This document shows positions 6,235 through 33,376 of a stretch of 64,000 bases of DNA, piece by piece. Position numbers and translations under genes: made by a program. Under the pieces are notes generated by a model, which worked only from the letters and a program-made list of their open reading frames with translations, was not told the DNA's origin and ran no database searches. The stretch is taken from contig CAJSZV010000018.1 of the NCBI GenBank assembly GCA_910574345.1, positions 1-64,000 of the forward strand. Direction: 5' to 3'. The DNA is from Clostridiaceae bacterium (lineage in GTDB: Bacteria; Bacillota; Clostridia; Lachnospirales; Lachnospiraceae). Every line of letters begins with the position of its first letter. The stretch's first letter is position 1.

Positions 6235-6521
6235 TGAAACAAGGTACGTTGAACAGAAAGCAGTATGATAAAATCCGTAAAATGGATCACGGGCAGATGC
6301 AGGACTACTTCGGGGGAGTGTACGCACTCGGATACGAGGCCGGAGTCAAGGCGGCGTCTGAAAAGCGGGAAGTGCCGGAGCTGGTCGGCCTGGAAGATGA
6401 ATTGCTCTCAATCCGTGGGATAGGGAGCGCAAAGGCACGGCTTATCTGCGAAAAGGTCAGAGAATTTTTAGAGAGAAAGGCGGGGCATGATGAAACCGGT
6501 GTTGAAATATCCGGGGAGTAA
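6234..6521 (+). CDS. Small helix-hairpin-helix protein
   Basis: A 95-residue protein whose ATG shares one base with the ParB-like stop codon. The C-terminal half contains a helix-hairpin-helix (LLSIRGIGSAKARLICEKV), the non-specific DNA-binding motif of repair and recombination proteins. The N-terminal half is helical and basic. It overlaps the methylase gene by 35 bases. A DNA-binding accessory of the element is likely; a specific function cannot be given. Confidence 0.5.
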   Translation: MKQGTLNRKQYDKIRKMDHGQMQDYFGGVYALGYEAGVKAASEKREVPELVGLEDELLSIRGIGSAKARLICEKVREFLERKAGHDETGVEISGE

Positions 6522-7305: not shown

Positions 7306-7315
7306 GGAGGCAGAC

Positions 7316-7486
7316 ATGAAGAAAAAAATAGTAAACGCCATAGGGTGTATGATAGCGAAGTGGATATTGCACAACTTTGAGGACGGCCTGGTGATAAAGC
7401 GGAGGGGCGGGGCAGACCAGATCATAAAAGTCTTTTCCGTGCAGGCATATAAAAACATAATAAAACCTGCTATCCACAGAAAATAG
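7316..7486 (+). CDS. Small protein of unknown function
   Basis: A 56-residue basic protein with a strong ribosome site (AAGGAGG, 7304-7310). It has one moderately hydrophobic N-terminal helix (IVNAIGCMIAKWILHNF), possibly membrane-associated, then KRRGGADQIIKVF. Not recognised. Confidence 0.4.
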   Translation: MKKKIVNAIGCMIAKWILHNFEDGLVIKRRGGADQIIKVFSVQAYKNIIKPAIHRK

Positions 7487-7510
7487 AGAGTTGCAAAGGA
7501 GGATTTTAGC

Positions 7511-8107
7511 ATGGAACTATATAGAGGAAAATCAGTGAAAACCGGAGACTGGATAATAGGCGCCGCCGTGTGCATTGGTGACAAAGCGCATATCCTGGGC
7601 TCCGAAAGTCTTTTCCCGGAGCGGCCGGCGTATCACGGCATGGCCATAGGAGCCGGTCTTGAGGATTCCTGTATCACCGACCGGTACGAGGCGGCGGCTT
7701 ACGGCTGGACGGAGGCGCTGGACCGGTACGAAGAGAATTTCCCGGAATGGATTGAAGTTGTACCGGAGACAGTCACAAGATGCACAGACAAGCATGATAT
7801 TCCGGGAAACGTTCTTTTTGAGGGTGATGTATACCGGAATCCGGACAATCTGCTGTTTGAAGTCTGCTACGGGAAGTACCAGGCATATTGTCCGGCCGAT
7901 AAGTGCTATATGGAAAATGTGGGGTTCTTTGCCATTTCCAAAGACACAAAAGAAATTTACGGAATTGACGCCCCTATGCCTTTGGGAAGTACAGAGGACT
8001 ACGCATACCTGGTAGGGAATATCTTTGACAGTCCGGAGTTGAGACAGGATGCCGGGCAGAGCGCCGGACAGTGGGCAGATCAGCCGACATTAAGACCGGC
8101 CACATAA
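7511..8107 (+). CDS. YopX-like phage protein
   Basis: A 198-residue protein with ribosome site AAAGGAGG (7496-7503). The opening MELYRGKSVKTGDWIIGAAV and the central VVPETVTRCTDKHDIPGN, then FEGDVYRNPDNLLFEV, follow the layout of YopX proteins (RGK...G.W..G; ...PETV...T.L.D..G...FEGDI). YopX is a widespread phage family of unknown function. About 40 residues at the C-terminus (repeated GQSAGQ) are extra. Confidence 0.6.
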   Translation: MELYRGKSVKTGDWIIGAAVCIGDKAHILGSESLFPERPAYHGMAIGAGLEDSCITDRYEAAAYGWTEALDRYEENFPEWIEVVPETVTRCTDKHDIPGNVLFEGDVYRNPDNLLFEVCYGKYQAYCPADKCYMENVGFFAISKDTKEIYGIDAPMPLGSTEDYAYLVGNIFDSPELRQDAGQSAGQWADQPTLRPAT

Positions 8108-8142
8108 TCCGTAATTTTGATAATGCAAAAATAGTACCGGCA

Positions 8143-8151
8143 TGGTATAAT
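8143..8151 (+). promoter_or_regulatory. Extended -10 promoter of the lipoprotein gene
   Basis: Seen: TGGTATAAT, an extended -10 (TG-N-TATAAT). No -35 lies at the right distance; TTGATA at 8117-8122 is 23 bases away. The initiation point would be about 20 bases before the lipoprotein start. Confidence 0.45.
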
Positions 8152-8175
8152 ATGGACTTACAGGAGGAAAAACAG

Positions 8176-8898
8176 ATGAAAAAAATAGTTGTTATGTTAC
8201 TTGTAACGTTCGCCATGCTCTCCCTTGTGGCGTGCGGTGACAGCTTTGAACAGGGGATGAAAGACGCCATGAATGATACTTCCCTGGCAGACAGGGAAAC
8301 AGAGGAAGAATCCCAGGAACCGGAGACAGAATCCACGGAGCCGGAGGAACCTGCAGAACAGGAGCCGGAGACAGCCGCCGATCAGGAGAGCCAGGAGGAA
8401 CCTGCGGCGGTAGAATATGACAATTTGCAGGCGGTATTCCTTGCGCTGAATGAGAAAACCACGCCGGATGAACTGGAAAAGCTCATTTCTGAATCTGAAT
8501 TGTTTTACACGGCAGAGGAATACAATTCCTCGTCTGGGAAAACTGTCAGCTACAATATAGCCTATACCGAGGGGGCGGCGGCTCAAAAGTACGCAGAGGC
8601 AGGGGATCACCTGACGGTAGATTTTGGAGGTGACGGCAAGGACGAATTTATGTATGCACAGTACGTCAATGAAAAGGACGTATCATATTCCGCTTTGCTG
8701 TATGACCATGGAACCTGGTACGATTTCCGAGACGCCAACGCAGAGGACTACGGCGGATATTATGTCGTTGACAGTATTTCCGGGAAAGGCGGGATCACGG
8801 TCAAATATTCCAACGGGAACGAGACGGAAACAGGGTATATTCCCTGCACATCCGGGGAAGAGGCCATACAGAAAATCATGGAGAGGATTTCAGAGTAA
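8176..8898 (+). CDS. Secreted acidic lipoprotein
   Basis: A 240-residue protein with ribosome site AGGAGGAAA and its own likely promoter. A lipoprotein signal peptide ends in LVAC with the lipidated cysteine at position 20. Residues 45-85 are a low-complexity Glu/Pro/Gln linker (EEESQEPETESTEPEEP), followed by a compact C-terminal domain of about 150 residues. That domain has a GGDGKDEFMYAQY segment like the FG-GAP or VCBS repeats that bind calcium, but only one copy. It is the last gene before chromosomal rluF and appears to be the last gene of the mobile module. Confidence 0.65.
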   Translation: MKKIVVMLLVTFAMLSLVACGDSFEQGMKDAMNDTSLADRETEEESQEPETESTEPEEPAEQEPETAADQESQEEPAAVEYDNLQAVFLALNEKTTPDELEKLISESELFYTAEEYNSSSGKTVSYNIAYTEGAAAQKYAEAGDHLTVDFGGDGKDEFMYAQYVNEKDVSYSALLYDHGTWYDFRDANAEDYGGYYVVDSISGKGGITVKYSNGNETETGYIPCTSGEEAIQKIMERISE

Positions 8899-8910
8899 GG
8901 AACGGCGCAT

Positions 8911-8945
8911 TTAACAAAAGTGCAATTTTGGTCACTTTTCGTTAA
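8911..8945. repeat. Imperfect inverted repeat at the module/chromosome junction
   Basis: Seen: TTAACAAAAGTG (8911-8922) and CACTTTTCGTTAA (8933-8945), inverted with one inserted base and a 10-base spacer. It lies in the only gap between the module and rluF. It could be a recombinase attachment site, an operator or a weak terminator. The far end of the element is outside the window, so the direct repeat expected for an attachment site cannot be tested here. Confidence 0.4.
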
Positions 8946-9018
8946 TATCCGGGATGCCATGTTTATCCGATAAAAAGAGTACAATCTACTGTGAGGTATA
9001 CACAGAATGGAGGAAATA

Positions 9019-9753
9019 ATGGATGAAATCCGTCTGAATAAATATTTAAGTGAGATGGGAGTCTGTTCCCGAAGGGAAGCGGACCGGCTGATTGAGGCAG
9101 GGAAAGTTCTGGTGGACGGGCACAGAGCCGCAATGGGAATGAAGATTTTTGAGGGTCAGTCTGTAATCTGTAACGGGAAAAAGGTTTCTGCATTGGAGGC
9201 AGAGAAAAAGAATGCCAAAGGCAGGCCGGAGAGAGTACTCCTGGCAGTCAATAAGCCGAAGGGAGTCGTATGCACCACATCCCATAAGGACCGGGCTGTG
9301 AATATTGTGGAGATGGTGGATTATCCCATCCGGGTGTATCCTGTGGGACGTCTGGATAAAGACTCGGAAGGGCTGATCCTTTTGACAAACCAGGGAGAAC
9401 TGGTGAATAAGATGCTGCGGGGAGCCAATGGCCATGAGAAGGAGTATGTGGTTTCGGTAGACCGGCCTTTGACCCAGCCGTTTATAAAGGGAATGGCGGC
9501 GGGAGTTTATCTCAGGGAATTGGGAATCGCCACCAAACCCTGTAAAATATGGGCCACAGGGCCAAGGGAATTTCACATCATCTTAACCCAGGGATTGAAC
9601 CGTCAGATCCGCCGCATGTGCAAGACCTTGGGATACCATGTACAGAGTCTTAAGCGGATCCGCATTATGAATATAAAACTGGGCAACTTAAAGGCAGGAA
9701 CCTTCCGGAGGGTGACTCCGGAGGAGTACAAACAATTGACAGAGATGCTTTAA
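9019..9753 (+). CDS. rluF: 23S rRNA pseudouridine(2604) synthase RluF-like
   Basis: A 244-residue enzyme that converts a uridine of 23S rRNA to pseudouridine. It has an S4 RNA-binding domain (RLNKYLSEMGVCSRREADRL, residues 5-24) and the RluB/E/F catalytic core with GRLDKDSEGL at 110-119 (catalytic Asp113). QGLNRQIRRMC and the ending LKRIRIMNI fit RluF better than RluB, though the subfamily call is less sure than the family. The ATG at 9019 has GGAGG at 9009-9013; the ATG at 9007 overlaps that site and is rejected. It is the first gene of clearly chromosomal type. Confidence 0.85.
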   Translation: MDEIRLNKYLSEMGVCSRREADRLIEAGKVLVDGHRAAMGMKIFEGQSVICNGKKVSALEAEKKNAKGRPERVLLAVNKPKGVVCTTSHKDRAVNIVEMVDYPIRVYPVGRLDKDSEGLILLTNQGELVNKMLRGANGHEKEYVVSVDRPLTQPFIKGMAAGVYLRELGIATKPCKIWATGPREFHIILTQGLNRQIRRMCKTLGYHVQSLKRIRIMNIKLGNLKAGTFRRVTPEEYKQLTEML

Positions 9754-9778
9754 GAAGCACAGGTCAGGGAGAATTCAT

Positions 9779-11752
9779 ATGGAACAGAAAACAAAAAGAA
9801 TGAAAGAACTGATCGCCCGGCTGTCCGAGGCAGGAAAGGCCTACTACCAGGAAAGCCGGGAAATCATGAGCAATTATGAATATGACAGACTCTATGATGA
9901 GCTGTGTGCACTGGAGCAGGAGACAGGCATGATTCTGTCGGGAAGCCCTACTCAGAAAGTGGGATATGAAATATTAAGCGAGCTGCCTAAGGAGCCTCAC
10001 CCGTCGCCCATGCTCTCTCTGGATAAGACGAAGGAAACGGAAGCCCTTAAAGAGTGGCTTGGCGGGCAGGAGGGCCTTCTTTCATGGAAGCTGGACGGCC
10101 TGACCATTGTCCTGACCTATGAAAACGGCGTGCTCACGAAAGCAGTCACCAGAGGAAACGGTGAGATCGGGGAAGTGATTACCAACAATGCGAAAGTATT
10201 TGAGAATGTTCCTTTAAGGATTGCCTTTGAGGGTGTTCTGGTGCTGAGGGGGGAAGCGGTGATCAAATATTCCGACTTTGAAAAAATGAACGAGGAGATT
10301 GATGAGATCGACGCCAAGTATAAGAATCCCAGGAATTTGTGCGCCGGCTCCGTCCGGCAGCTGAATAACGAGATTACAGCCCGGCGCCACGTGAATTTCA
10401 TGGCATTTTGGCTGGTACAGGCGGAGGGAGTGGATTTCCGTAATTCAAGAAGCAGGCAGTTTCAGTGGCTTCAGTCCCTGGGGTTTGACGTGGTGGAACA
10501 CAAAAAGGTTACAAGGGAGACCGCGGCAGAGTCAGTGGCTTATTTTGCCGAAAAGATAGAACATTATGATATTCCTTCCGATGGGCTGGTTTTGACTTTT
10601 GAGGATATCGCTTACGGAGAGTCACTGGGAAGAACAGCCAAATTCCCCCGCAATTCCATTGCCTTTAAGTGGGCGGACGAGATTCGGGAGACAACTCTTT
10701 CCTATATTGAATGGAGCCCTTCCAGGACAGGACTCATCAATCCTGTGGCGGTGTTTGAACCGGTGGAACTGGAAGGGACTACAGTGAGCCGGGCCAGCGT
10801 CCACAATATCAGTATTATGGAATCTCTTGAACTGGGGGAGGGAGACAGGATTACGGTATACAAGGCCAATATGATTATCCCTCAGATTGCCGAGAATCTG
10901 ACCAAAAGCGGAGTAAAAGATATTCCAAATGTGTGTCCTGTATGCGGCGGCCCTACGGAGATTCGCCAGGTCAATGATGTGAAATCCCTCTACTGCACCA
11001 ATGCTGACTGCCAGGCCAAGAAGATCAAGAGCTTCACCCTCTTTGTCAGCCGGGACGCCCTGAATATTGACGGTCTGTCAGAGGCTACGCTGGAAAAATT
11101 TATCGGAGCCGGGTTCATCAAAGAGTTTGCGGACATCTTCCATCTGGAGCAGCACAGGGAAGCCATTGTCAATATGGAAGGATTCGGACAGAAATCTTAT
11201 GACAATCTGATACAGGCCATAGAGAATGCGGCCCATACTACCCTGGTTCGGGTTGTCTACGGGCTGGGAGTGGCAGGAATCGGGCTGGCCAACGCGAAAA
11301 TGCTGTGCCGTCATTTCCACTATGATTTTCAGGCCATGAGCCACGCCGACAGTGGGTCCCTGACCGAAGTGGACGGCATAGGACAGGTGCTGGCAGATGC
11401 GTGGTGCGCTTATTTTGGAGACGAAAAAAATCAGGCCATGGTGGATCGTCTCATGACAGAACTTACTATAGAGCCAGTGGAGGAGGAAGAGGAATCGGGA
11501 GAGTTTGCCGGCATGACCTTTGTCATCACCGGTTCTGTGGAGCGTTTTAAAAATCGCAAGGAACTGCAGAACCTGATTGAAATGAGGGGAGGAAAGGCCA
11601 CAGGCTCTGTCACCTCCAAGACGACCTATCTCATCAACAACAATGTAAATTCCGCGTCATCAAAGAATAAAAAGGCCAGGGAGCTGGGAATTCCCATTTT
11701 ATCTGAGGAGGATTTTATAAAGCTTCTGGAAGGAGAATATCATGCCGATTAA
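9779..11752 (+). CDS. ligA: NAD-dependent DNA ligase
   Basis: A 657-residue enzyme that seals DNA nicks using NAD+, close to the usual 670 residues. The adenylated lysine is in SWKLDGLT at about K104; RGNG replaces the more common RGDG. The OB-fold region is followed by a four-cysteine zinc finger (CPVCGGPTE, then CTNADC), helix-hairpin-helix repeats ([23 protein letters not shown]) and a C-terminal BRCT domain ([20 protein letters not shown]). It starts 25 bases after rluF and overlaps metA by 11 bases. Confidence 0.93.
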
Positions 11753-20737: not shown

Positions 20738-20813
20738 AGATAATAGCAGAAAAAGAATTTTGAATAGAATGTAATGAAAATATATGGGATTTATAAGACC
20801 TGGAGGAACAAGG

Positions 20814-22967
20814 ATGGAAAAGCTGGAGTACATTATTGAGGATCGTACCATAGCAGAGGTATTAGGGATACAGAATTTCACGAATGAGGAATCTGCGGTA
20901 TTGGAACTGGTTAAAAATTCCTTTGATGCACAGGCAAAAAATGTCCATATTATTATTTCAAAAGAGCAGATGATCATCGAAGATGATGGAATTGGTATGA
21001 CTCGCAATAAAATCCTGGATTTTTGGATGCATGTTGGAAAAAGCGATAAAGATTATCAGATTGGTGAAAAAGAGAATGCAAGAGTTTTGGCAGGCTCGAA
21101 AGGAGTTGGACGGTTTGCATTGGCCCGTCTGGGGGGAACAGCGGCAGTATATTCAAAGGCAGAGCGGGAGATGGGAATTGTATGGAATACAGATTGGAAT
21201 ACGAATACTTTGGACACGATAAATGACTTGAAAGCCCAGGGAACGAGAATTGAGATAGGGCAGTTAAGAGATAGTTGGACAAAGACCAGAGTCTCGAATT
21301 TAGTCGATTTTTTGTCAAGAACATATAATGATGACTCTATGAAGATCTATGTAGAATACCAAGGCGATAAAAAACAAATACAGAGATATTTTGATGATTT
21401 TAAGTTAGGGATTCATGGAGTAAGTTTGATAAATTTAAACTATGATGCAAAAACCAGGGATTTGACATGCCGGATCGAATCAGATGAATTTAAAGAAGAA
21501 GCTTTAAAATGGTGCCCTGAGACAAATTTGCAGAGAACAGAAGTTGTATTGAATATCGTTGATGAATTGGATGGGATGCAGGAGGCGTTAACACAGGATG
21601 AGATGTCCGAAGAGGCATGGGGAGAGCTATTGACTTCTGTAGGAAGTTTTTCGGCAGAGTTTTATTTTTCTTTAAAAAATCCTTCGGTTGTAGATGCGGA
21701 TAAATTTTGCTATAAACATCGAATTTTAGAAAAACGCTATGGCTATGGAATTGTGCTGTATAGAAATTCCTTTAGCATATCATCTTATGAGGGAAAAAGG
21801 GATTGGCTTGGTTTTGGTAAAAGATCAAGATTATCACCGGCAGCAGCGTCTCATGGAACAGGTTCCTGGAGGGTAAGGGAAAATCAGATATCGGGGAAAG
21901 TGATTATTGATAAAAAAGAAAATGAGCTGCTTGTAGATTTGGCAAACCGACAGGGATTGGTAGAAAATGTTATATACAGAGTTTTTATTCAGATTCTTCT
22001 GTCAGGGATTCAATGCTTTGAGAGATATCGTCAGGGCATTATTCGAAATATCAATAAGAAAAATGAGGCGGAAAAGCCGGCTGAATCTAAAATATTTGAG
22101 ATGATAGTGAAACGGCCTGAGAAGCTGTCTGCCCTTTCTGATGAGGAACGGAATACCTTTGTTCAGGAATTAAAGGGTATGAAAGCAAAGGATAGTGAAA
22201 ACCGACGACAGATGGAAGAAACCGAAAAAAAATATAAATATGATATCCGGTTGTTGAATACATTTGCCACATCAGGACTGAAAGCTGCTTCCATAGCTCA
22301 CGAAATGTTTAATAATAGAAACAACATTGATGAAAATGTAAATTATATTATCGAGGCGCTAAAAAGATATGAACTTTGGGATATTGTAAACGAACCGGAT
22401 AATTTGAGGTATATGCATAGGAATATTCCGGCTCTTCTGAATAAAAATCAAAAAATTAATAAAAAGATAATCTCATTTATGGATGCAATGCTTTCGGAAT
22501 CAGAAAAACAGCAGTTTCAGCCGGAAAGTCTTAAGATTCATGAGATTTTTGAAGAGATAAAGATTGGATGGGAAAAAGACTATTCCTGGGTGGATATTCG
22601 ATTTTCGGCGGAAGAAGGGATGGAACATAGAAGCGCAAAAGATATCTTCAAGGTAATATTTGATAATCTGATCTTGAACAGTATTCAGCAAAATGATGAT
22701 GAAAATATACTCCAGATTTCGATACAGGTTGAAAAGAGAGGAAGAAATATTGAGATCGTTTATTCAGATGATGGAAAGGGACTTCCTCCTAAGTTTCTTC
22801 CTGATCCCATGCGCATACTGGAAGTGCATGCGACGTCGAGAAAAAACGGACATGGAATAGGAATGTGGATTGTTAATAATACAGTTGTTGAAAGTGGTGG
22901 AGAGATCATAAGTATTGAAGGTGTCAATGGCTTTAAAATAAAGTTTAGCATAGGAGATAGAGTGTAG
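20814..22967 (+). CDS. Soluble dual-GHKL ATPase with histidine-kinase-like core
   Basis: A 717-residue protein without signal peptide or membrane segment. Residues 1-110 are a GHKL/HSP90-type ATPase: N-box ELVKNSFDAQ (31-40), DDGIGM (57-62), GSKGVGRFA (94-102). Middle residues 120-400 are of unknown fold with GTGSWRVRENQISGKV, like the transducer part of MutL/HSP90 relatives. A helical region with SIAHEM follows (His496, where the phospho-accepting His of a kinase would be), then a second HATPase near 600-717 with DDGKG (652) and GHGIG (679). Start set by GGAGG at 20802-20806. Low GC. It heads a unit with a receiver protein, an HNH nuclease and an N6-methylase, which suggests a defence ATPase/sensor; the exact family is not known to me. 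Confidence 0.75.
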   Translation: MEKLEYIIEDRTIAEVLGIQNFTNEESAVLELVKNSFDAQAKNVHIIISKEQMIIEDDGIGMTRNKILDFWMHVGKSDKDYQIGEKENARVLAGSKGVGRFALARLGGTAAVYSKAEREMGIVWNTDWNTNTLDTINDLKAQGTRIEIGQLRDSWTKTRVSNLVDFLSRTYNDDSMKIYVEYQGDKKQIQRYFDDFKLGIHGVSLINLNYDAKTRDLTCRIESDEFKEEALKWCPETNLQRTEVVLNIVDELDGMQEALTQDEMSEEAWGELLTSVGSFSAEFYFSLKNPSVVDADKFCYKHRILEKRYGYGIVLYRNSFSISSYEGKRDWLGFGKRSRLSPAAASHGTGSWRVRENQISGKVIIDKKENELLVDLANRQGLVENVIYRVFIQILLSGIQCFERYRQGIIRNINKKNEAEKPAESKIFEMIVKRPEKLSALSDEERNTFVQELKGMKAKDSENRRQMEETEKKYKYDIRLLNTFATSGLKAASIAHEMFNNRNNIDENVNYIIEALKRYELWDIVNEPDNLRYMHRNIPALLNKNQKINKKIISFMDAMLSESEKQQFQPESLKIHEIFEEIKIGWEKDYSWVDIRFSAEEGMEHRSAKDIFKVIFDNLILNSIQQNDDENILQISIQVEKRGRNIEIVYSDDGKGLPPKFLPDPMRILEVHATSRKNGHGIGMWIVNNTVVESGGEIISIEGVNGFKIKFSIGDRV

Positions 22968-22969
22968 CA

Positions 22970-23557
22970 ATGAAAGAAAAAATAAATCTGGTATATATTG
23001 ATGATGAACCGGATATGGCAATTTCGCGTTATCTGGAAGATAATTATCGAAATGACAATGCAGATGTAGATTACAAGGAGTTTATTTTCAAGTGTGAGGA
23101 AGGATATGAGAGTCTGTTAGAGTCAAAAGAGATCAATTTAGCCAATGTGATTCTTATAGATTCCAAGCTCTTTGAAAATGATAATATAAGACATAAGGGT
23201 AAATTTTCAGGGGAAGAGTTTAAGATGATTTTGAGGAAGTTATTTCCATTTATCGAGGTTTTGGTTATTTCACAGAATGGTGAAAATGAGGCTTATGAAA
23301 TTATTCCTAAGTATAGAAGCGGAACATCTGAAAAGTCAGAAGATTATTATGACAGAGTATTAAAAGGAAAGATAGATGAAAGCATTAGGAAGGTGATTAT
23401 TTTCCGAAATATTTCTAAAAAATTGGGAAGGAACAAGGGGCTTGAAGAAGTTCTTGTGGAAAAAACAATGGATTCATTAAATGGTATCAGAGATTATGAA
23501 AATTTGAAAAAGGAAGATATAGATCATTTGATCGCTGCCTTTCAGCAAATAAAATAG
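22970..23557 (+). CDS. Stand-alone receiver-like protein without known output domain
   Basis: A 195-residue protein starting two bases after the ATPase stop. Residues 1-120 have a receiver pattern: acidic pair D11-D12 (YIDDEPD), candidate phospho-acceptor D64 (ILIDSKL), S101 after a hydrophobic strand (VLVISQ). The expected lysine is less clear (K114). There is no helix-turn-helix; the C-terminal 75 residues are helical and unlike known DNA-binding domains. It is most simply the partner of the kinase-like protein upstream. Its output could be protein contact with the nuclease or methylase. AT-rich. Confidence 0.65.
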   Translation: MKEKINLVYIDDEPDMAISRYLEDNYRNDNADVDYKEFIFKCEEGYESLLESKEINLANVILIDSKLFENDNIRHKGKFSGEEFKMILRKLFPFIEVLVISQNGENEAYEIIPKYRSGTSEKSEDYYDRVLKGKIDESIRKVIIFRNISKKLGRNKGLEEVLVEKTMDSLNGIRDYENLKKEDIDHLIAAFQQIK

Positions 23558-23568
23558 AGGTAAAGTAA

Positions 23569-24234
23569 ATGCCAAAAGATAAAGATTACAGAAATACCCA
23601 ATATTGTAAAGAATTAATTGATGTTTCAAATAAAAAAGAAAGGTTGGAAGCACAAATACAAGAGGATTTTCCGAGAACAAGGATTATCTATAATAAGGTA
23701 AAAAAACGTGGTGGAATATATAATCGGAAATTTGCGGAAATTTACAATGAGAAATGTGCGTATTGCGGAATTTTGTTAGGATTGATTCCATTAGAATCTT
23801 TCGAGGTGGATCATTTTATAAATGAGGCTTCTTTTTCTGATACGGAGGAAGACCGCATAAAAGCAGGGAGGATGGAGAATCTGATATGGTCCTGTATAGA
23901 TTGTAATCGGGGTAAAAGCGGGCTTACCATTACTCCGCCTTATGATCATATTTTAAATGTTGATCAAGGGAATATATGTCAGGTATTTGAAAGGGATAAA
24001 GATTTTTACATACGGATAAATGCTCAGTATAAAAATGATGAATTTGTAAAAATGTTTTATGATAGCCTGCATCTGGGGTATCAGAGGCGGCGTATGGATT
24101 ATTTGCTTTTACAGATGTATGGAAGAATGAAAGCAGAGAGAAATGAGATGAAGAAAAATAAACTAGGGGCGGCTTTTTTAGAATTACTTGAAGCAAGAAA
24201 TAGAATGCATATAACAGATGGGAAACGGATATGA
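23569..24234 (+). CDS. HNH endonuclease with zinc finger
   Basis: A 221-residue protein. The HNH core is complete: CAYCG (Cys63, Cys66), EVDHFIN (Asp81-His82), ENL with Asn104, and SCIDCNRGKSG (Cys109, Cys112, Asn113, Lys116). The four cysteines should hold a structural zinc and the DH/N residues the catalytic metal. The N-terminal 60 residues are basic and may bind DNA. It overlaps the methylase by ATGA, so endonuclease and methylase would be made together, as in a type II restriction-modification pair. Specific nuclease activity is inferred, not shown. Confidence 0.8.
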   Translation: MPKDKDYRNTQYCKELIDVSNKKERLEAQIQEDFPRTRIIYNKVKKRGGIYNRKFAEIYNEKCAYCGILLGLIPLESFEVDHFINEASFSDTEEDRIKAGRMENLIWSCIDCNRGKSGLTITPPYDHILNVDQGNICQVFERDKDFYIRINAQYKNDEFVKMFYDSLHLGYQRRRMDYLLLQMYGRMKAERNEMKKNKLGAAFLELLEARNRMHITDGKRI

Positions 24235-25829
24235 AGAGTTTAGAGAATAAATTATCCGGTTCTTATTACACACCTGACAGAACGGTTCAATTTATGAAAA
24301 ACTATTTGCATATTGAACATCAGTATTATACCAAAATATTGGAGCCTTCTGCGGGAGATGGACGTTTTATAGATGCATTTTGTAAAAGTGATGAAATTGA
24401 ACAACTTACAGCGGTTGAATTGGATGAAAAGAAAACAACACTTTTAAGAGAAAAAAAATATTCGGATAAGGTGGTCATTATCAACGATGATTTTTTGGAT
24501 TATGCTTTTAAAGTGCAAGGTAAATTTCATTTAATAATTGGAAATCCACCTTATATTAATATAAAGAATATGGAAAGCAGTACTCTGGAAAAGGCAAAAA
24601 AATTATGTGACAGATTTCATTTGCCATATTCTATGATGAAGAATGTATGGGTTGCTTTTCTTCTTGCGGCAGTTTCATGTCTGAGAGAGTCCGGAGTTAT
24701 ATTTCTGGTATTGCCCATGGAATTTCTGCAGGTACAATATGCGGAAAAAATTCGTATATTTTTGGAGGAGAGGTTTAATACAATACACATTCTAACATTC
24801 AGGGAGGCTATGTTCCCGCAAATTGAACAGGAAGCATGTCTTGTTTATTTGACCAATGAGAATAACAGAGAGCCTAATATTAATTTTAAGATTTATAGGC
24901 AGTTGGATTCACAAACGCCCTTTCATCATTCTGTTATCCAGAGAAATAAACCATTAAAGAAGTGGACAAATGCTATTTTATCTGATCAGGATATTGATGT
25001 TTTAGAACGGATGAGGAAAAGATATATAAGAATTTCAGACATTTGCGAGGCATCTCCAGGAATTGTAACAGGTGCAAACAATGAATTCATTTTAAACTCA
25101 GATGAAGTAGAATCACTGCAATGCGGGGAATATATACTGCCTGTTATTCCTAAAGGCGGTATGTTAAGAGGAAAATTTATTTTAAACCGGGAAGTTGTAA
25201 AGCGGTTAGGAGAGGAAAATGAACGAATATATCTTTTGAATTTATCGAAAACTGATCCAGGTTTATATTCAGAAGAGTTGATCCGGTATCTGAATACGAT
25301 CGGGGAAAAAGAGAATTCGTCGGGGATTAAGCTGAAGGAGCGATATAAATGCAGAAATAGAAAACCATGGTATGGGGTTCCTATTGTTGCCAACGGTGAT
25401 TTGTTTTTTTTTAAGCGATATGATAAGCTTCCAAAGCTTTGCATTAATGAGGCGGATCTATACACAACAGATATTGCTTATAATATGAGACTGAAAGGCT
25501 ATTATGATAAAAGAAGTGCAGCCTTTTGTTTTTATAATTCATTAACTTTAGCACAATGCGAATACTATGGGCGGTATTACGCAGGCGGCGTATCGGAATT
25601 AATCCCAAGTGAGTTTAAAGAACTGGCAATACCATATAAGGATATTTGCGAGGAGGATATTCTTTGTCTGGACAGAATGTTTCAGGAAAATGCGGCAAGT
25701 ATGGAAATTATCAGATTTGTTAATTCCAGAACGATAGGAAAGGATTTGCCATTGGAACAGATCAATCAATTGGATAGCATTAGAAAACGGCTGATGGACA
25801 GAAGAATTACAAAAAAGGAAAAGAAATAA
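24231..25829 (+). CDS. N6-adenine DNA methyltransferase, Eco57I-like
   Basis: A 532-residue gamma-type methylase. Motif X-like SGSYYTPDRTVQFM (9-22), motif I ILEPSAGDGRFIDAF (36-50), acidic VELD (62-65), and catalytic NPPY at 105-108 (IIGNPPYIN) are all present. Residues 260-510 look like a target-recognition domain (DICEASPGIVTGANNEF and, later, YYGRYYAGGVSELIPSEF), so it could choose its own site without a separate specificity subunit. Low GC, like the three genes before it. The stop codon shares one base with the ABC exporter start. A partner of the HNH nuclease in host protection is the likely role. Confidence 0.85.
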   Translation: MKSLENKLSGSYYTPDRTVQFMKNYLHIEHQYYTKILEPSAGDGRFIDAFCKSDEIEQLTAVELDEKKTTLLREKKYSDKVVIINDDFLDYAFKVQGKFHLIIGNPPYINIKNMESSTLEKAKKLCDRFHLPYSMMKNVWVAFLLAAVSCLRESGVIFLVLPMEFLQVQYAEKIRIFLEERFNTIHILTFREAMFPQIEQEACLVYLTNENNREPNINFKIYRQLDSQTPFHHSVIQRNKPLKKWTNAILSDQDIDVLERMRKRYIRISDICEASPGIVTGANNEFILNSDEVESLQCGEYILPVIPKGGMLRGKFILNREVVKRLGEENERIYLLNLSKTDPGLYSEELIRYLNTIGEKENSSGIKLKERYKCRNRKPWYGVPIVANGDLFFFKRYDKLPKLCINEADLYTTDIAYNMRLKGYYDKRSAAFCFYNSLTLAQCEYYGRYYAGGVSELIPSEFKELAIPYKDICEEDILCLDRMFQENAASMEIIRFVNSRTIGKDLPLEQINQLDSIRKRLMDRRITKKEKK

Positions 25830-27661
25830 TGCAGAAATCACAAAATAAAGATTCTTATACAAAACTGTCCCTTATCTGGGATTTCCTTAAGGGGAGCAGG
25901 ATGTTTTTTCTTATCAGCATCCTGGCTGCCCTTTTTGTCAACGGGCTGGAGATGATCTCTCCCCAGATCATACGGGCCACCATTGACAGCGTTATCGGCG
26001 ATAAGGAGCTGGAACTGCCGCTTTTTGCCGTCAGTCTGGTAGAGCGGGCGGGCGGTATCAAGACTCTGAAAAGCCATCTGTGGCTCATAGCTTTCACCAT
26101 TGTTATGCTGGCTACGGGCAGCGCGGTGTTTCGCTATGTGAATATGTATTATAACAGCAGGGGAGCGGAGCATTTTGCAAAAACCATGCGTGACCGCTTA
26201 TTTGCCCATATTCAAAAACTGCCCTTTTCCTGGCATATGAAGAATCAGACCGGTGATATTATTCAGCGGTGTACTTCGGATGTGGATATGATTAAAAATT
26301 TTATATCGGAGCAGCTGACAGCGGTATTTCGAATCTTCATCATGATTGCCTTGTCTCTATGTTTCATGTTTTCCATGAATATAAAACTGACTGCAGTGGC
26401 CCTTGTGTTTATCCCTGTGATTCTCGGATATTCCTGGGCATTTCATGCGAAGATACAGGAGCGCTTTACAAAGTGTGATGAGAACGAGGGGGTTCTCTCA
26501 GCAATCGCCCAGGAAAACCTGACAGGTATTCGCGTGGTGCGTGCCTTTGGCAAGGAAAACTTTGAGAGAGAGCGTTTCGAAAAACAGAACCAGATCTATA
26601 CCAACGAATGGATGAAACTGTGTGTGGTGCTGTCTCTGTTCTGGGGGACGGGAGATCTGGTTTCCGGTCTGCAGATTATGCTGGTAGTAGTGCTTGGGTC
26701 TTATCTCTGTGTGAAAGGGGAGATGACAGCAGGGGAGTTTATTGCATTCGTGTCCTATAATACCATGCTGGTGTGGCCCGTTCGTTCTCTGGGGCGGACT
26801 ATTTCCGAGATGAGCAAGGCAGGGGTTTCTGTGGAGCGTATCTGTTATATTATGAATTCCCTTCCGGAACAGGATAAGCCTGATGCTCTGACACCGGATA
26901 TGAGAGGAGACATTGACTTTGACCATGTTTCCTTTGGGTATGGCAGCGAGAAGATTCTTTCTGACGTAAGCTTTACAGTGAAGGCAGGAACCACCTTTGG
27001 AATTCTGGGAAGCACGGGCTGCGGCAAATCCACTCTTATGCATCTCATGAACCGCCTGTATGACCTGCCGGAAGACGGCGGCAGAATTACCATTGGAGGC
27101 GTGGATATCAGAGACATGAAAGGGGAGTGGGTGAGACAGCATATTGGTATGGTGCTTCAGGAACCTTTTTTGTTTTCCAGGACCATTGCCGAGAATGTGG
27201 GAATAGCCAAAGATCCGGTGACTCTCACAGAGATCCGTCAGGCCGCTGCCATAGCCTGTGTGGACGAGTCCATTACTGATTTTACAAGAGGATATGATAC
27301 TCTGGTAGGGGAGAGAGGAGTTACGCTGTCCGGCGGACAGAAGCAGAGAATAGCAATCGCCCGTATGCTTATGCAGAAGACACCTATTATGGTTTTTGAT
27401 GATTCTCTCTCAGCCGTGGATGCCAAGACAGATGCCATGATTCGGGGGGCGTTGAAAGCCGAACTGGCGGATACAACCGTGATTCTTATTGCCCACAGAG
27501 TTACAACTCTCATGGAGGCTGACTGCATTATGGTTCTTGACAGAGGGAAAGCGGCGGAGATGGGGACTCACGAAGAGCTTATGGAGAGGAAGGGGATCTA
27601 CCGGAAAATTTACGATATACAGATGGCATTGGCTGAGGAGGTGGAGCAGAATGGAGCATAA
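25829..27661 (+). CDS. ABC exporter subunit, degenerate ATP site
   Basis: A 610-residue half-transporter: six membrane segments (about 15-330) then an ATPase domain. Walker A is GSTGCGKST, the signature LSGGQKQR is canonical, but Walker B reads IMVFDDSLSAVD, with Asp where the catalytic Glu should be. That is the pattern of the non-catalytic partner in heterodimeric exporters such as BmrC/BmrD or TM287/288. The start shares one base with the methylase stop (TAATG). GC returns to host level after the first 15-20 codons. Substrate unknown: drug, lipid or peptide. Confidence 0.88.
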   Translation: MQKSQNKDSYTKLSLIWDFLKGSRMFFLISILAALFVNGLEMISPQIIRATIDSVIGDKELELPLFAVSLVERAGGIKTLKSHLWLIAFTIVMLATGSAVFRYVNMYYNSRGAEHFAKTMRDRLFAHIQKLPFSWHMKNQTGDIIQRCTSDVDMIKNFISEQLTAVFRIFIMIALSLCFMFSMNIKLTAVALVFIPVILGYSWAFHAKIQERFTKCDENEGVLSAIAQENLTGIRVVRAFGKENFERERFEKQNQIYTNEWMKLCVVLSLFWGTGDLVSGLQIMLVVVLGSYLCVKGEMTAGEFIAFVSYNTMLVWPVRSLGRTISEMSKAGVSVERICYIMNSLPEQDKPDALTPDMRGDIDFDHVSFGYGSEKILSDVSFTVKAGTTFGILGSTGCGKSTLMHLMNRLYDLPEDGGRITIGGVDIRDMKGEWVRQHIGMVLQEPFLFSRTIAENVGIAKDPVTLTEIRQAAAIACVDESITDFTRGYDTLVGERGVTLSGGQKQRIAIARMLMQKTPIMVFDDSLSAVDAKTDAMIRGALKAELADTTVILIAHRVTTLMEADCIMVLDRGKAAEMGTHEELMERKGIYRKIYDIQMALAEEVEQNGA

Positions 27662-29474
27662 AGAGGAAAACGGGGCTGTTTCGCTGCCCTTTTTTGGAAT
27701 CCATAAGCTGGCGCCTTATCTGAGGCCTTACCGGTTTACCATGATTACGATGATTGTCCTGGGATTTGCGGGAGGGCTGGTGGATATTATCCTGCCTTTG
27801 TTTCAGGAATACGCCATAGATCATTTTATTGTAAAAGAGAATCTGTCTTCTATGGGGGGATTCATAGGGGCATACGGCTGTGTCCTGATCTTTCAGGTTA
27901 TAGCCAATGGGATTTCCGCTTATCAGGCCTGTGAGATTGAGATGTATGTAGGGCGTGATATGAAGAGGGAAAGCTTTAATCACCTTCAGACCCTGGCCTT
28001 TTCCTATTTTAACAGGAACAGCGTGGGCTACATCCATGCCAGGGTGATGAGTGACACCAACCGTATCGCCGCCCTGGTATCATGGAGTCTGATGAACGGC
28101 ATCTGGTATATCTCCTATATTATAGGAGCCGTCATTGTCATGCTGTCAGTGAATGTGAGACTGTCATGTTTTGTGCTTATGCTTGTTCCCCTCCTTACGG
28201 CTGCAGCAGCATTTTTCCAGAAAAGGCTTGTGATGATCAACCGGAAGGTCCGGGAGATTAACTCCCGCATTACTTCTGATTTTAATGAAGGGATTACAGG
28301 AGCAAAGACTACCAAAACCCTGGTTATCGAGAAAAAGATGGAGGAACATTTTGCCAAGACATCAAAGGAGATGGAGGAGACATCCGTAAGGGGAACCCAT
28401 TATCGGGCCATGTTTTCTTCCATGATCTCTTTTGCCGCGTCTGCGGCTTTGGCTTTAGTGCTGTGGCAGGGAGGTATGATTACCATGGAAGGGGCTCTTA
28501 AGATCGGCACCTTGTCCGTGTTTATGACCTATGCCCTTGGGATGATGGAGCCGGTTCAGTGGATTGTCCGGTCCGTGTCCGATCTGATTACGGTCCAGGT
28601 CAATGTGGAACGTTTTTCCGGATTGGTGGAGACGGAGTCTGATGTGAGGGACAGGCCGGATGTGGTGGAGAAGTACGGCGACTCCTTTGCGCCCAAGAGG
28701 GAGAACTGGGAACCTCTTCACGGAGATATTACCTTTGAGGATGTTTCTTTTAAGTATCCTGACGGGGAGGAATATGTGCTGGAACATTTCAATCTCCATG
28801 TGCCCCAGGGAACCAACATTGCTATCGTAGGGGAGACGGGAGCCGGCAAATCCACATTGGTGAATCTGGTCTGCCGTTTTTTTGAGCCGACTTCCGGCCG
28901 GATTCTTATTGATGGGGTAGATGCAAGGGAACGTTCTCAGCTGTGGCTTCACAGCAATATCGGATATGTCCTTCAGACACCTCATCTCTTCTCCGGAAGT
29001 GTTATGGAGAATCTGAGATATGGCAATCCTGATGCTACTGTGGAGCAGGTGGAAGCGGCAGTCAAAAGCGTGTCAGCGGATGAAGTGATTGCCCGGATGG
29101 ACAGAGGATATGACAGTGATGTGGGAGAGGGAGGAGATTTGATCTCTACGGGAGAGAAGCAGCTTCTTTCCTTTGCGCGGGCGATTCTGGCAAACCCAAG
29201 AATCTTTGTGCTGGATGAAGCCACTTCCTCCATTGACACAGTGACAGAGAAAAAGATCCAGGATGCGATTGCACACCTGATGAAAGGGCGTACCTCTTTT
29301 GTCATCGCCCACCGGCTTTCCACCATCCGTCAGGCTGACCTGATTCTGGTGATCCGGGACGGAAAAATCGTGGAGAGAGGTACTCATAAAGAATTGATTG
29401 CCGGGAAGGGCGAGTATTATCACCTGTATACAAAACAGTATCAGGAGGAAGCCCTATCCCTATTGTTTCAGTGA
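27651..29474 (+). CDS. ABC exporter subunit, catalytic ATP site
   Basis: A 607-residue half-transporter, start at 27651 inside the end of the first subunit with GAGGAGGTGGAG as ribosome site. Walker A is GETGAGKST, Walker B FVLDEATSSID has the catalytic Glu, and the signature is altered to ISTGEKQ. In a heterodimer its catalytic site would pair with the partner's intact LSGGQ, and its altered signature would face the partner's degenerate site. A ten-membrane-helix total is not expected; both subunits have the usual six. Its 3' end overlaps the convergent solute-binding gene by 15 bases. Confidence 0.88.
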   Translation: MEHKEENGAVSLPFFGIHKLAPYLRPYRFTMITMIVLGFAGGLVDIILPLFQEYAIDHFIVKENLSSMGGFIGAYGCVLIFQVIANGISAYQACEIEMYVGRDMKRESFNHLQTLAFSYFNRNSVGYIHARVMSDTNRIAALVSWSLMNGIWYISYIIGAVIVMLSVNVRLSCFVLMLVPLLTAAAAFFQKRLVMINRKVREINSRITSDFNEGITGAKTTKTLVIEKKMEEHFAKTSKEMEETSVRGTHYRAMFSSMISFAASAALALVLWQGGMITMEGALKIGTLSVFMTYALGMMEPVQWIVRSVSDLITVQVNVERFSGLVETESDVRDRPDVVEKYGDSFAPKRENWEPLHGDITFEDVSFKYPDGEEYVLEHFNLHVPQGTNIAIVGETGAGKSTLVNLVCRFFEPTSGRILIDGVDARERSQLWLHSNIGYVLQTPHLFSGSVMENLRYGNPDATVEQVEAAVKSVSADEVIARMDRGYDSDVGEGGDLISTGEKQLLSFARAILANPRIFVLDEATSSIDTVTEKKIQDAIAHLMKGRTSFVIAHRLSTIRQADLILVIRDGKIVERGTHKELIAGKGEYYHLYTKQYQEEALSLLFQ

Positions 29475-30776
29475 TTCCTCCTGCAGCTGATCGAATTTTG
29501 CCATACATTCGTCCACTGTAGCGCCGTTCAGCAGATCTCTTACGATCAGGCAGGTGTTGCCCCACTGTTCTACTTTCATGCCGGCATTGGAAGCAAGAAC
29601 ATAGATATTATTCTGAATTTTTTCGTTGAGAGGCTTTAGGGCTGGAATACATTCTACCTGGACATTTTTTGACGGCGAGATTACCCGGTTAGCCTCTGCA
29701 TACAACTGGAGACACTCGTCAGAGAGGATGATCTCCAGCACCTTAACCGTGTCTTCCAGATGGGCTGCATTGGCTGCAACGCCATATCCGGTAATGGGAA
29801 CGACAGGCATCTGTCCCCGGCTGCTGGGGAATCCAATAACCTGAAGATTAAAATCCGGACTTCCGTAAGCGGTGTCTGCATTGGCGGCTCCCCAGTATGC
29901 CATGACAATGGGGGTTTTCTGGGCCAGGAAATCGGGCCCCTCCCCTTCAATGGCTTCATAGGTATATGCGGCTGCTGCATCCACATAGCCTTTATCAATG
30001 AGTTCTTTAAGAAACTCAAAACCGGGGCGCATATAGTCGCTGTATTTTGCAGCCCCGCTGTTGAGGGCTTCAATCTCCGCCTGGGCATTCCCGCCGTTGT
30101 ACAAGTCTGCGAAGGCCTGGGCAAAGACAAAACACTCCAGCCACCAGCGGTTGGCGCCGACGGGGGTTTCGATACCCTGTTCCTTGAACACCCGGCAGCA
30201 TTCTAAAAATTCCTCCGGTGTACTGGGCAGTTCCAGATTATACTGGTCAAACATGTCTTTGTTGATAAAAAGGCCGTAGGCCACCACTTCCTGGGGAATG
30301 GCCACCAGTTTCCCGTCAACGGTGTTTGCCATTTTTACCACATCTCTTAAATTTTTCACACAGTCAAGGTCTGACAGGTCCAGAAGCCTTCCTTCATCTC
30401 CCAGGGTCTGGATTGTATCGGGGTTCAGAAGATACAGATCATCCATATCGCTGCGCACCCGGTCAAGAACCACATCATCATATGTTTTTTCTTTATAGTT
30501 CTCTGCAGTGTAAGTCCTGTATTCTACGGTCAAATCCAGCTGATCTTCCGCCTTGATCACTGTCTGGTCAAATGCGTTTCTTGCAACATTGGCTACACCG
30601 GGTTTGGATTTCTCCATAGGCCCGAAGAGGTTTACCACTCTTTCGCGGTCTCTCTCATCCAGAATCAGATTATTGTCAGGCTTTTCGGCAGTCCCGCAGG
30701 ATGTTGCGGCGGCAAGTACAATTCCCATAAGACAAACTGCCATCAGCTTTTTGCCCGTTGTCAGATTCCTTTTCAT
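29460..30776 (-). CDS. Extracellular solute-binding lipoprotein (family 1-like)
   Basis: A 438-residue surface lipoprotein. The signal peptide ends with AATSC (lipidated Cys27). The rest follows the sugar-binding, family 1 layout (DLYLLNPDTIQTLGDEGRLLDL; VAYGLFINKDMFDQYNLELP; TPIVMAYWGAANA). It starts on ATGA overlap with the hybrid kinase gene upstream and no permease or ATPase gene is near, so it may present a ligand to the kinase instead of feeding a transporter. The start at 30776 is preferred over 30800 because AGGAAGAG precedes it. Confidence 0.8.
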   Translation of the reverse strand: MKRNLTTGKKLMAVCLMGIVLAAATSCGTAEKPDNNLILDERDRERVVNLFGPMEKSKPGVANVARNAFDQTVIKAEDQLDLTVEYRTYTAENYKEKTYDDVVLDRVRSDMDDLYLLNPDTIQTLGDEGRLLDLSDLDCVKNLRDVVKMANTVDGKLVAIPQEVVAYGLFINKDMFDQYNLELPSTPEEFLECCRVFKEQGIETPVGANRWWLECFVFAQAFADLYNGGNAQAEIEALNSGAAKYSDYMRPGFEFLKELIDKGYVDAAAAYTYEAIEGEGPDFLAQKTPIVMAYWGAANADTAYGSPDFNLQVIGFPSSRGQMPVVPITGYGVAANAAHLEDTVKVLEIILSDECLQLYAEANRVISPSKNVQVECIPALKPLNEKIQNNIYVLASNAGMKVEQWGNTCLIVRDLLNGATVDECMAKFDQLQEESLKQ

Positions 30777-33376
30777 GACTCTTCCTTTCTTCCTATCCAC
30801 TGACTTACTGTTTTCTTTAAAAGCTCCAAATCAATCGGTTTCGCCACATGAACATTCATGCCTGCATCCAGGGCGTCCTTTACATCTTCTGTAAAAGCAT
30901 TGGCTGTCATGGCCACAATCAGAATCTCTTTGGCATCTTCCCGGTTCAATGACCGGATTGCCCTTGAGGCGTCATAGCCGTTCATCACCGGCATCTGAAC
31001 ATCCATAAGGATTGCGTCAAATTCACCTGGGCGCGACTGATCAAAACGTTCCACCGCCAGTTTTCCGTTTTCCACGATCTCGCAGGTCGCCTCCTCCATA
31101 TCCAGAAGCTCCCATAAAATCTCTGCATTGATTTCATTATCTTCCGCCACGAGAAAATGAAGGCCTGACAGACTGTGTTCTTCCCCGCTCTGGTTTTTTG
31201 GCTTCTCATCCTGCTGTCCCATCTGCATCTTCTGGATCTTCTCCTTAAATGCAGATACGAAAAATGGTTTGGCCAGGATTCCCGAATGACCTACATGAAT
31301 GACTTCCTCTTCTAATTCCGCACCGTCGTAGGCCGTCAGAAACAGGATAGGCACTGTCTGTGTTATGATTTCCCGGATTCGGTTGGCGGTCTCAAAGCCG
31401 TCCATCCCCGGCATCTTCCAATCCAGAAGGATGATATGATAATCCTCTCCTTTTTTGCCTGCTTCATCAATGAGGCGCAGAGCCTCTTCTCCTCCGGCTG
31501 CCGTATCTACCCGGACTTTTGTTTCCTTCATAAGCAGCTGAATGGTGTTGCGGATATCCGGGTCATCATCTACTGCAAGGATCCGGGAAATACCGCATTT
31601 CTTCCAGAATTCCTCGTCCTTCTGGTTATCGGGAATGCGCAATTCCAGTTCCACGGTAAACAGGCTTCCCTTTTCCACTTCGCTGGCAACCTCTATGGTT
31701 CCGCCCATAAGTTCTACAATGTTTTTGGTTATGGCCATGCCAAGGCCCGTCCCCTGAACCTTATTTGTCGTACTGTTCTCCGCTCTGGTAAAAGCATCGA
31801 AAATAGTTTTCAGATATTCAGGAGTCATGCCGTATCCATTATCTTCCACTTCAATCCGAATATGCTCATACTGGGCTGAGTGCTGCTCTAATCCGATGAT
31901 GCGGAACCAGATATTGCCGCCGTTAGGTGTATATTTTACGGCGTTGGAGAGAAGATTAATTAAAATCTGGTTGATCCTTGTTTCATCTCCCACCAGATAT
32001 TCATGCTTAATATCCGTCACAACTACATCAAAGCTCTGATCCCTTGCCTTTGCCATGGGGCGGATAATGGCATCTACAGAGGCCACCAGACTGCTTAATG
32101 TGAATTCCCCTATGGTGAGAACCACTTTGCCGCTTTCTATCTTGGACACATCCAGGACATCATTAATGAGACTTAAGAGATGCTGGCCGGATGCGGTGAT
32201 CTTTCTTGTGTATTCTCTCACTCTGATGGGATTATCTGCATCTTTGGCAAGAAGAGTAGTGAATCCCAGAATGGCATTCATGGGAGTACGGATATCGTGG
32301 GACATGTTGGAAAGGAAGGTGGTCTTGGATTTGCTTGCAATCTGCGCTGCCTGCAGAGCTTCCGCCAGCTGTCTGTTATGAATCTCCCTTTCTTCTTCCT
32401 GTTCCTTTCTTAGTTTCACCTGCTCCTTCTGATTAAAATAATATAAGATACAGCAGATAAGAAATGCGGCCAGCATGATCACGACTACCAGGATCAGATT
32501 TTGATTAACGATCTTCCCCTCCTGCTGGATGGCTTCAATAGGAACATAACCGATAAGGTAAAGGGAACCTTCGTTCACCGCCCACATATAAATCAGAGAA
32601 TTCTGGCCTCGTATATCGTGATAAAACATAATATTCTTCCCGTTCCGTATGCGTTCAGTGACCTCATCCTGAAGTTTTTTATCAAGGATATTATTGGCAC
32701 GGTAAAAATCTTCCAGATTCAGATGTCCCGCATCCAGCTGGCCCATACCCTTGGGCTTGAGAACAAGCCGTTCGCTTTTGGCATCCATAATGTAGAGCAT
32801 AGCGCTGCCGTTATAGAAGCCTCCCGGCAATGCCTGATCAAAGGAATCAAAAATATATTCTACATAAAGAGTCGCGGTCTCTTTTTCGTCTTTTACTACA
32901 GGGCACTTCATGGTATATGCCCAGGTTCCCATACCATTGAGATAGGACTGGGATATCGGAAGATCTTCCACGGTTCTTCCCGACGAGAAATCCAGGCCGT
33001 TTTCTGTAAATACCTCTTCCGAATTGGATATACCCTGGTTTTCTCCTGATGGTATCAGGGATATCTTTACCATAGTACGGTTCTTTTCGTAAGAGCGGAT
33101 AAATGATTCCTGATCTTCTATGGTAGAGATCTCCCGGGCAATCAGCTTCTGAAACTCCGCTTCCTTGGTCAGAATTGCTTCCACCGTACCCTTGATCAGC
33201 CCCAGGCTTTCGCTTAGATTATGAATTGCCGAGGAGGACATCTCCGACGATATTCTCTGGGCCACAAAAAAAACCACTGTTCCTAAAATACAAAAAACCA
33301 GTACAATAGAAAGAAACAAGGAAGCTCCTTTATTGTCTCTGGTTCTTTTCTTATTCTTTTTCATCCTGAACCTCAC
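30773..33376 (-). CDS. Hybrid sensor histidine kinase with two receiver domains
   Basis: An 867-residue membrane kinase starting with GTG behind AAGGAG. Membrane helices at about 18-40 and 292-313 enclose a roughly 250-residue external sensor of Cache-like type. Then HisKA with SNMSHDIRTPMNAILGF (His360), HATPase with LLSNAVKY, EDNGYGM and GTGLGMAIT, receiver 1 (acidic pair DDD near 603-605, phospho-Asp652 in LLDWKMPGMDG) and receiver 2 (AEDN, phospho-Asp792 in LMDVQMPVMNG). There is no output domain or response regulator next to it. Its stop overlaps the binding-protein start. A strong promoter lies at 33516-33545. Confidence 0.9.
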   Translation of the reverse strand: MRFRMKKNKKRTRDNKGASLFLSIVLVFCILGTVVFFVAQRISSEMSSSAIHNLSESLGLIKGTVEAILTKEAEFQKLIAREISTIEDQESFIRSYEKNRTMVKISLIPSGENQGISNSEEVFTENGLDFSSGRTVEDLPISQSYLNGMGTWAYTMKCPVVKDEKETATLYVEYIFDSFDQALPGGFYNGSAMLYIMDAKSERLVLKPKGMGQLDAGHLNLEDFYRANNILDKKLQDEVTERIRNGKNIMFYHDIRGQNSLIYMWAVNEGSLYLIGYVPIEAIQQEGKIVNQNLILVVVIMLAAFLICCILYYFNQKEQVKLRKEQEEEREIHNRQLAEALQAAQIASKSKTTFLSNMSHDIRTPMNAILGFTTLLAKDADNPIRVREYTRKITASGQHLLSLINDVLDVSKIESGKVVLTIGEFTLSSLVASVDAIIRPMAKARDQSFDVVVTDIKHEYLVGDETRINQILINLLSNAVKYTPNGGNIWFRIIGLEQHSAQYEHIRIEVEDNGYGMTPEYLKTIFDAFTRAENSTTNKVQGTGLGMAITKNIVELMGGTIEVASEVEKGSLFTVELELRIPDNQKDEEFWKKCGISRILAVDDDPDIRNTIQLLMKETKVRVDTAAGGEEALRLIDEAGKKGEDYHIILLDWKMPGMDGFETANRIREIITQTVPILFLTAYDGAELEEEVIHVGHSGILAKPFFVSAFKEKIQKMQMGQQDEKPKNQSGEEHSLSGLHFLVAEDNEINAEILWELLDMEEATCEIVENGKLAVERFDQSRPGEFDAILMDVQMPVMNGYDASRAIRSLNREDAKEILIVAMTANAFTEDVKDALDAGMNVHVAKPIDLELLKKTVSQWIGRKEES

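Follow-up and report, generated by a model that had tools for sequence, protein, structure and literature searches.

A recurrent gene set of a double-GHKL kinase-like protein, a receiver-like protein, an HNH nuclease and an N6-adenine methylase in a Lachnospiraceae genome

Classical type II restriction enzymes work alone. A locus in which the genes for a nuclease and a DNA methylase directly follow genes for a histidine kinase-like and a receiver-like protein raises the question whether restriction can be placed under the control of a phosphorelay. Such a locus is present in contig CAJSZV010000018.1 of a Lachnospiraceae genome (assembly GCA_910574345.1), the first 64,000 nucleotides of which were analyzed and are called the window. 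Open reading frame (ORF) calling and the sequence place four plus-strand ORFs, A, B, C and D, in one transcription-unit-like run at 20814-25829 (Table 1). It is established that the gene set recurs, that A, B and C are inherited together and that the residues for phosphotransfer are intact. We see an even chance that the four genes form a horizontally moving cassette resembling type II restriction-modification (R-M) systems, in which a two-component-type relay would be placed between sensing and cutting.

The gaps between the genes are 2 bases (A-B) and 11 bases (B-C), and C and D overlap by 4 bases. The guanine-cytosine (GC) contents of A, B, C and D are 0.37, 0.32, 0.34 and 0.35. Far higher values were measured in the flanks: 0.52 in the upstream gene, and 0.48 and 0.49 in the two ABC transporter genes downstream. 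A previous sequence-only reading had proposed four AT-rich genes in one transcription unit, encoding a dual-GHKL ATPase, a receiver, an HNH nuclease and an N6-methylase. Coordinates and base composition agree with a compact AT-rich unit, and the gene identities are borne out by Pfam for A, C and D, and by residues together with weak profile and fold matches for B.

Table 1. Features of the four-gene run in the window.
Feature	Coordinates	Strand	Description
A	20814-22967	+	717 aa double-GHKL protein: HATPase_c_3 head (MutL/HSP90-like), middle region, helical linker, DHp helix, kinase ATPase domain
B	22970-23557	+	195 aa receiver-like protein with helical tail
C	23569-24234	+	221 aa small HNH nuclease
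D	24231-25829	+	532 aa Eco57I-type N6-adenine DNA methylase, M.Eco57I C-terminal domain
GGAGG	20802-20806	+	Likely ribosome-binding site of A, read from the sequence (predicted)

Recurrence and co-inheritance of the gene set

The order A-B-C-D is repeated in a genome of the same genus (L034, A 64% identical) and on plasmids of Bacteroides finegoldii, Salipiger profundus and Ensifer adhaerens, the latter with genes that are unannotated in the record and were located with our own profiles. Co-occurrence in unrelated genomes, for which the sequence-only reading had called, was thus found. On a plasmid of Deinococcus gobiensis the methylase comes first. A search of genome contigs yielded one relative, in a Lachnospiraceae metagenome-assembled genome (66% identical in the best segment). 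Three phage records match A of the window, the best with 23% identity over 94%, and one matches the Bacteroides A. A DNA search of E. coli genomes with one viral relative yielded nothing.

A total of 29 loci with an A of at least 500 bits were compared, i.e., the window, three loci of the same genus, 13 further loci of the same family, four plasmids and eight viral contigs. All of them were found through A, and the counts are therefore conditional on A and come from a non-random sample, nine members of which built the A profile; the 500-bit cut-off was chosen after the A scores had been seen to jump from 315 to 563 bits. A, B and C follow one another in this order on a single strand in 29 of 29 loci, with A-B gaps of at most 279 bases (L129) and B-C gaps of at most 25 bases. 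A methylase adjoins this triad in 27 loci: 13 times downstream (the type of the window), 13 times upstream (a second type, which in L036 is a PADLOC type II methylase), and once upstream in Deinococcus. Of the two other loci, L060 lies at a contig end, and L122 (G434, 6253-10074) is a triad without an adjacent methylase, which was lost or is encoded elsewhere. The A frame of L129 (G580, 6726-8997), which was kept among the 29 loci, ends after 663 aa, probably a broken kinase tail in a cassette that is complete otherwise.

Several loci were dropped before counting, namely L031 (A in two frames, B cut off by the contig end), L062 (A split), L049, L083 (contig shared with L054), the Rhizobium phaseoli match H46, and the short loci L001-L030 and L090-L119, which are mostly re-fetched places or ordinary kinases. 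L079 was excluded from alignment A6 only. L049, on the Klebsiella variicola plasmid NZ_CP063918 (4646-9515), contains an N-6 methylase, then A in three pieces and then weak matches to B (49 bits) and C (85 bits), and is apparently a decayed cassette.

Among 397 genomes of the family, an A of at least 400 bits is present in 14 (split into two pieces in two cases), and a C of at least 90 bits is present in the identical 14. The searches for A and for C, with 397 genomes each, were taken as one draw on the basis of matching numbers, matching tallies of quality and genera, and the listed handles, and only two of the 14 genomes (G000, G054) contributed to the profiles. Two candidates per genome were scored for A, so that the count for A is a minimum, and up to eight were scored for C. 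Among the remaining C matches a broken fragment in G386 scores highest (81 bits), and the others do not exceed 50 bits. In this sample the HNH family was not seen intact without its kinase. The fragment (G386:C4:108580-108954) is a lone HNH gene with one internal stop in a genome without a strong A, and it is probably a decayed remnant.

Co-inheritance was quantified by the correlation of pairwise distances in 26 loci. The coefficients are 0.96 for A/B, 0.90 for A/C and 0.88 for B/C, and those with the methylase are 0.52 (A), 0.55 (B) and 0.43 (C); in each of the six pairs the observed value was reached by 0 of 2000 permutations. The two methylase types align poorly with each other, which may depress the three methylase values. 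In the A tree the methylase arrangement switched at least three times, and one clade comprises the window, L034 and L130 with a downstream methylase together with L131 with an upstream methylase. The core is A-B-C, and the methylase is exchangeable. A single genus contains three distant A lineages (window/G011, G009 and G018), which fits horizontal transfer.

Conserved residues, predicted folds and flanks

The sequence-only reading had named His496, Asp64, Asp81-His82 and an NPPY motif as active-site residues; all were found at these positions, and the phosphotransfer residues are conserved. Pfam assigns HATPase_c_3 (5e-23) to residues 26-134 of A and HATPase_c (9e-17) to residues 613-699. His496 is located in the DHp helix, is aligned by the A profile with the H-box histidine of ThkA, and is invariant in 62 diverged proteins. 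A contains the DHp histidine and a CA domain with N, G1 and G2 boxes, as do two-component kinases. The structure model (mean predicted local distance difference test score 61.8) shows a kinase fold for the tail of A, with a fold match at 489-717 and aligned rows covering 452-717; this evidence concerns the C-terminal part, while the N-terminal half is in effect outside it and the middle region is of low confidence and was barely probed. The PADLOC profiles yielded weak matches of A to REase_II via the GHKL head (4e-8) and to Csx20 (0.005), for the L032 kinase REase_II only (7e-7), and for the L036 kinase no match.

For B, the 29 loci agree in D64 (29/29), D11 (28/29) and S/T101 (29/29), and Asp64 is invariant in 63 diverged proteins. 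The acidic pocket, phospho-acceptor aspartate, Ser/Thr switch and basic residue of receivers are all present. The B profile matches response regulators weakly (best E 0.008), and the model, of low confidence, has a receiver-like fold, which is established less firmly than the kinase fold of A. Neither Pfam (E <= 1) nor the PADLOC profiles gave a match for B, and no DNA-binding domain was found by Pfam in B or its kin.

C matches Pfam HNH (1.3e-4, 22.5 bits versus a cut-off of 21.4) and has the motif pattern CxxC ... DH ... N ... CxxCNxxK, the DH being Asp81-His82. It weakly resembles PtuB HNH proteins (PADLOC 1e-6; the L036 relative 9e-15), and through its HNH part it also matches the N-terminal part of two PtuA-labelled PADLOC profiles (best 1e-5). 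D matches M_Eco57I_C (4e-20) and Eco57I (7e-16) in Pfam and MTase_II in PADLOC (1e-124), contains the NPPY motif, and resembles BseCI and TaqI in its first 230 residues. A DNA methylase and a nuclease are thus encoded together in one unit, which is the gene content of a type II R-M system. M.Eco57I, BseCI and TaqI are N6 methylases like D, but D is tied to an HNH nuclease and a kinase/receiver pair.

An alternative start of A at 20784 is likewise open, and the GGAGG precedes the ATG at 20814. Promoter-like sites (19 versus 21.7 in shuffled sequences) and terminator-like sites (2 versus 2.5) are not in excess, and the folding of the leader is not special (z -0.31). Downstream, a pair of ABC transporter genes spans 25829-29474, and because its first ORF begins at the final base of D, transcription may continue from D into it. 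The genus mate G022 shares this pair at 78% DNA identity, but only from window base 25879 onward, and since its upstream gene is a different one, the comparison does not fix the ends of the insertion. Two further ORFs of the window, 30773-33376 (-) and 46343-47731 (+), score 46 and 39 bits with the A profile by histidine kinase-like matches, and likely encode ordinary sensor kinases.

Comparison with described systems

Is this set of genes new? The sequence-only reading had called it undescribed. This stands insofar as the PADLOC protein profiles (2023 library, applied without system rules; for D the best 25 of 42 matches) revealed no named defence system beyond the type II methylase match of D and the weak PtuB-like matches of C. 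It is too strong for the kind of system, because GHKL kinase-like proteins that are paired with receiver-like ones and encoded next to type II R-M genes have been reported, HNH and N6/N4 methylases being among the genes nearby (Bellieny-Rabelo et al., 2021; PMC8011034). The HEF_HK (PF19191)/Response_reg_2 (PF19192) pairs of that study share with the cassette the succession of HATPase_c_3, His helices and HATPase_c, a nearby receiver gene and an adjacent type II R-M system. However, at E <= 1 PF19191 and PF19192 match neither the window's A and B nor those of two four-gene relatives, and only 1 of 62 and 1 of 63 members of the wider class of kinase/receiver pairs described below match weakly. 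PF19192 was found in 0 of 149 genomes of the phylum, which shows little, as 14 control genomes were equally silent. In the parts of the study that were covered, C5 methylases and Vsr are stressed and a fixed set of HNH and Eco57I-type genes is not described; the main text contains neither the term Eco57I nor the term phage.

The wider class includes 34 further loci, in which the gene for a receiver-like protein (212-667 aa) comes immediately after that for a kinase-like A. An upstream ORF of at least 130 aa lies within 400 bases on the same strand in 23 of them, and Pfam assigns these ORFs to C5 methylases (11), N6_N4 methylases (5), Eco57I (2), the EcoRII C-terminal nuclease (1) and HNH (1). 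These surroundings match those published for kinase/receiver pairs beside R-M genes, as far as the covered parts of PMC8011034 describe them. Two receiver-like proteins of the class have weak, sub-cut-off HEPN/HepT-type matches in their C-terminal part. Two side observations concern this class. In L079 (3410-9329) an EcoRII-type nuclease gene lies just upstream of a 1137-aa kinase-like ORF and a 367-aa receiver-like protein, and in the plasmid loci L046 (7995-9998) and L047 (8016-9926) a kinase-like gene is followed by a gene for a protein of 636-667 aa without a Pfam match at 0.01, possibly a receiver-effector fusion.

Septu was rejected, because no AAA/ABC-type ATPase such as PtuA appears in the complete Pfam lists for A to D; C is weakly PtuB-like. 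These lists also lack the BREX and DISARM core genes (PglZ, BrxC; DrmABC), the profile scan being limited to the four genes; the methylases have weak PglX/DrmMI-like matches. Two-component signalling in defence is known from Detocs, which A and B recall. A profile with the name of Detocs or its proteins (DtcA/DtcB/DtcC) is not among the PADLOC matches listed, whereby no search was aimed at Detocs and the library content was unchecked. The restriction enzymes BbrUII/HgiDII (NF050001) resemble the N-terminal GHKL stretch of A (residues 15-171), but the match is confined to this head, with 65 bits versus a cut-off of 550 for the whole protein.

Iyer et al. (2008; PMC2292703) described MORC and paraMORC GHKL ATPases as components of R-M systems, whose operons also encode methylases and nucleases, including HNH in the case of paraMORC1. 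A likewise has a GHKL head (HATPase_c_3), but they are GHKL + S5 proteins, for which the covered parts of the paper mention neither a histidine kinase tail nor a receiver partner; the region of A where S5 would follow is of low confidence in the model. HATPase and REC are named among the domains of predicted systems in a figure legend of PMC13092281, and the covered parts of PMC12839542 and PMC7159879 contain no such gene set. The four-gene set was not described in the literature searched, mostly without subscription papers and preprints. Taken together, the set is real, recurrent and conserved in its active sites, and it is not a wholly new kind, as the kind was already outlined in 2021.

A possible relay from sensing to cutting

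We infer that the nuclease is gated by phosphotransfer. D would methylate the host sites, as its family suggests, and A, with its MutL/HSP90-like ATPase head and histidine kinase tail, would sense the state of the DNA, e.g., unmodified or foreign DNA. A would autophosphorylate on His496 and pass the phosphate to Asp64 of B, and B, a receiver without a DNA-binding output, would bind the HNH nuclease C and switch it directly. The conserved residues and the fold suggest the link from A to B, and the fixed adjacency and co-inheritance suggest that from B to C; sensing by the head and a role in phage defence would be in keeping with what is known of these families.

The same genes might also be an ordinary pair of HNH nuclease and N6 methylase, the expression of which is tuned by the attached two-component system. 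Transcription is a common target of two-component pairs, the expression of R-M genes has to be timed, and in other R-M systems transcriptional control is exerted by so-called C proteins (not to be confused with protein C). We nevertheless regard this as distinctly unlikely, because B and its kin have no DNA-binding domain in Pfam, and because the cohesion of A-B-C, while the methylase was exchanged and moved to the other end of the unit, would be odd for mere promoter control. That the phosphotransfer is idle, and A acts as a MORC/paraMORC-like DNA clamp which drives C by ATP alone, with a structural kinase tail and receiver, seems improbable, as the invariance of His496 and Asp64 in 62 and 63 diverged proteins is hard to explain without phosphotransfer. 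Nonetheless, the HATPase_c_3 head would suit a clamp, GHKL heads occur in the paraMORC R-M systems (PMC2292703, parts covered), and a Shedu protein that carries such a head has anti-phage activity (PMC12137116, parts covered).

Alternatively, phosphate could be a brake: as long as the cell is healthy, A would keep B phosphorylated and C silent, until infection halts the kinase through loss of ATP or of methylation or through DNA damage; the nuclease would then be released to kill the cell, resulting in abortive infection. The anatomy would be the same, and the conserved residues are silent on the direction of switching. The HEPN/HepT-type matches in the wider class would suit suicidal effectors, and L122 retains the triad without an adjacent methylase; an active nuclease would be expected to endanger this cell if it were not gated. 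However, a methylase beside the triad in 27 of 29 loci points to the marking of self and non-self rather than to pure suicide, and we consider the brake unlikely.

The relay proposed here may extend beyond the cassette. With somewhat less than an even chance, there is a widespread class of systems in which a His-to-Asp phosphorelay controls cutting post-translationally, whereby a DNA-sensing GHKL kinase would turn a separate nuclease on or off via a receiver. The cassette of HNH nuclease and N6-methylase would be one branch, and loci with C5 and N4/N6 methylases and receiver-effector fusions would be others. The conserved residues make the gating directly testable by a few point mutants. Should a phosphate signal indeed control the nuclease, restriction would become a response that is regulated and switched after translation, and two-component signalling would gain a nuclease as output.
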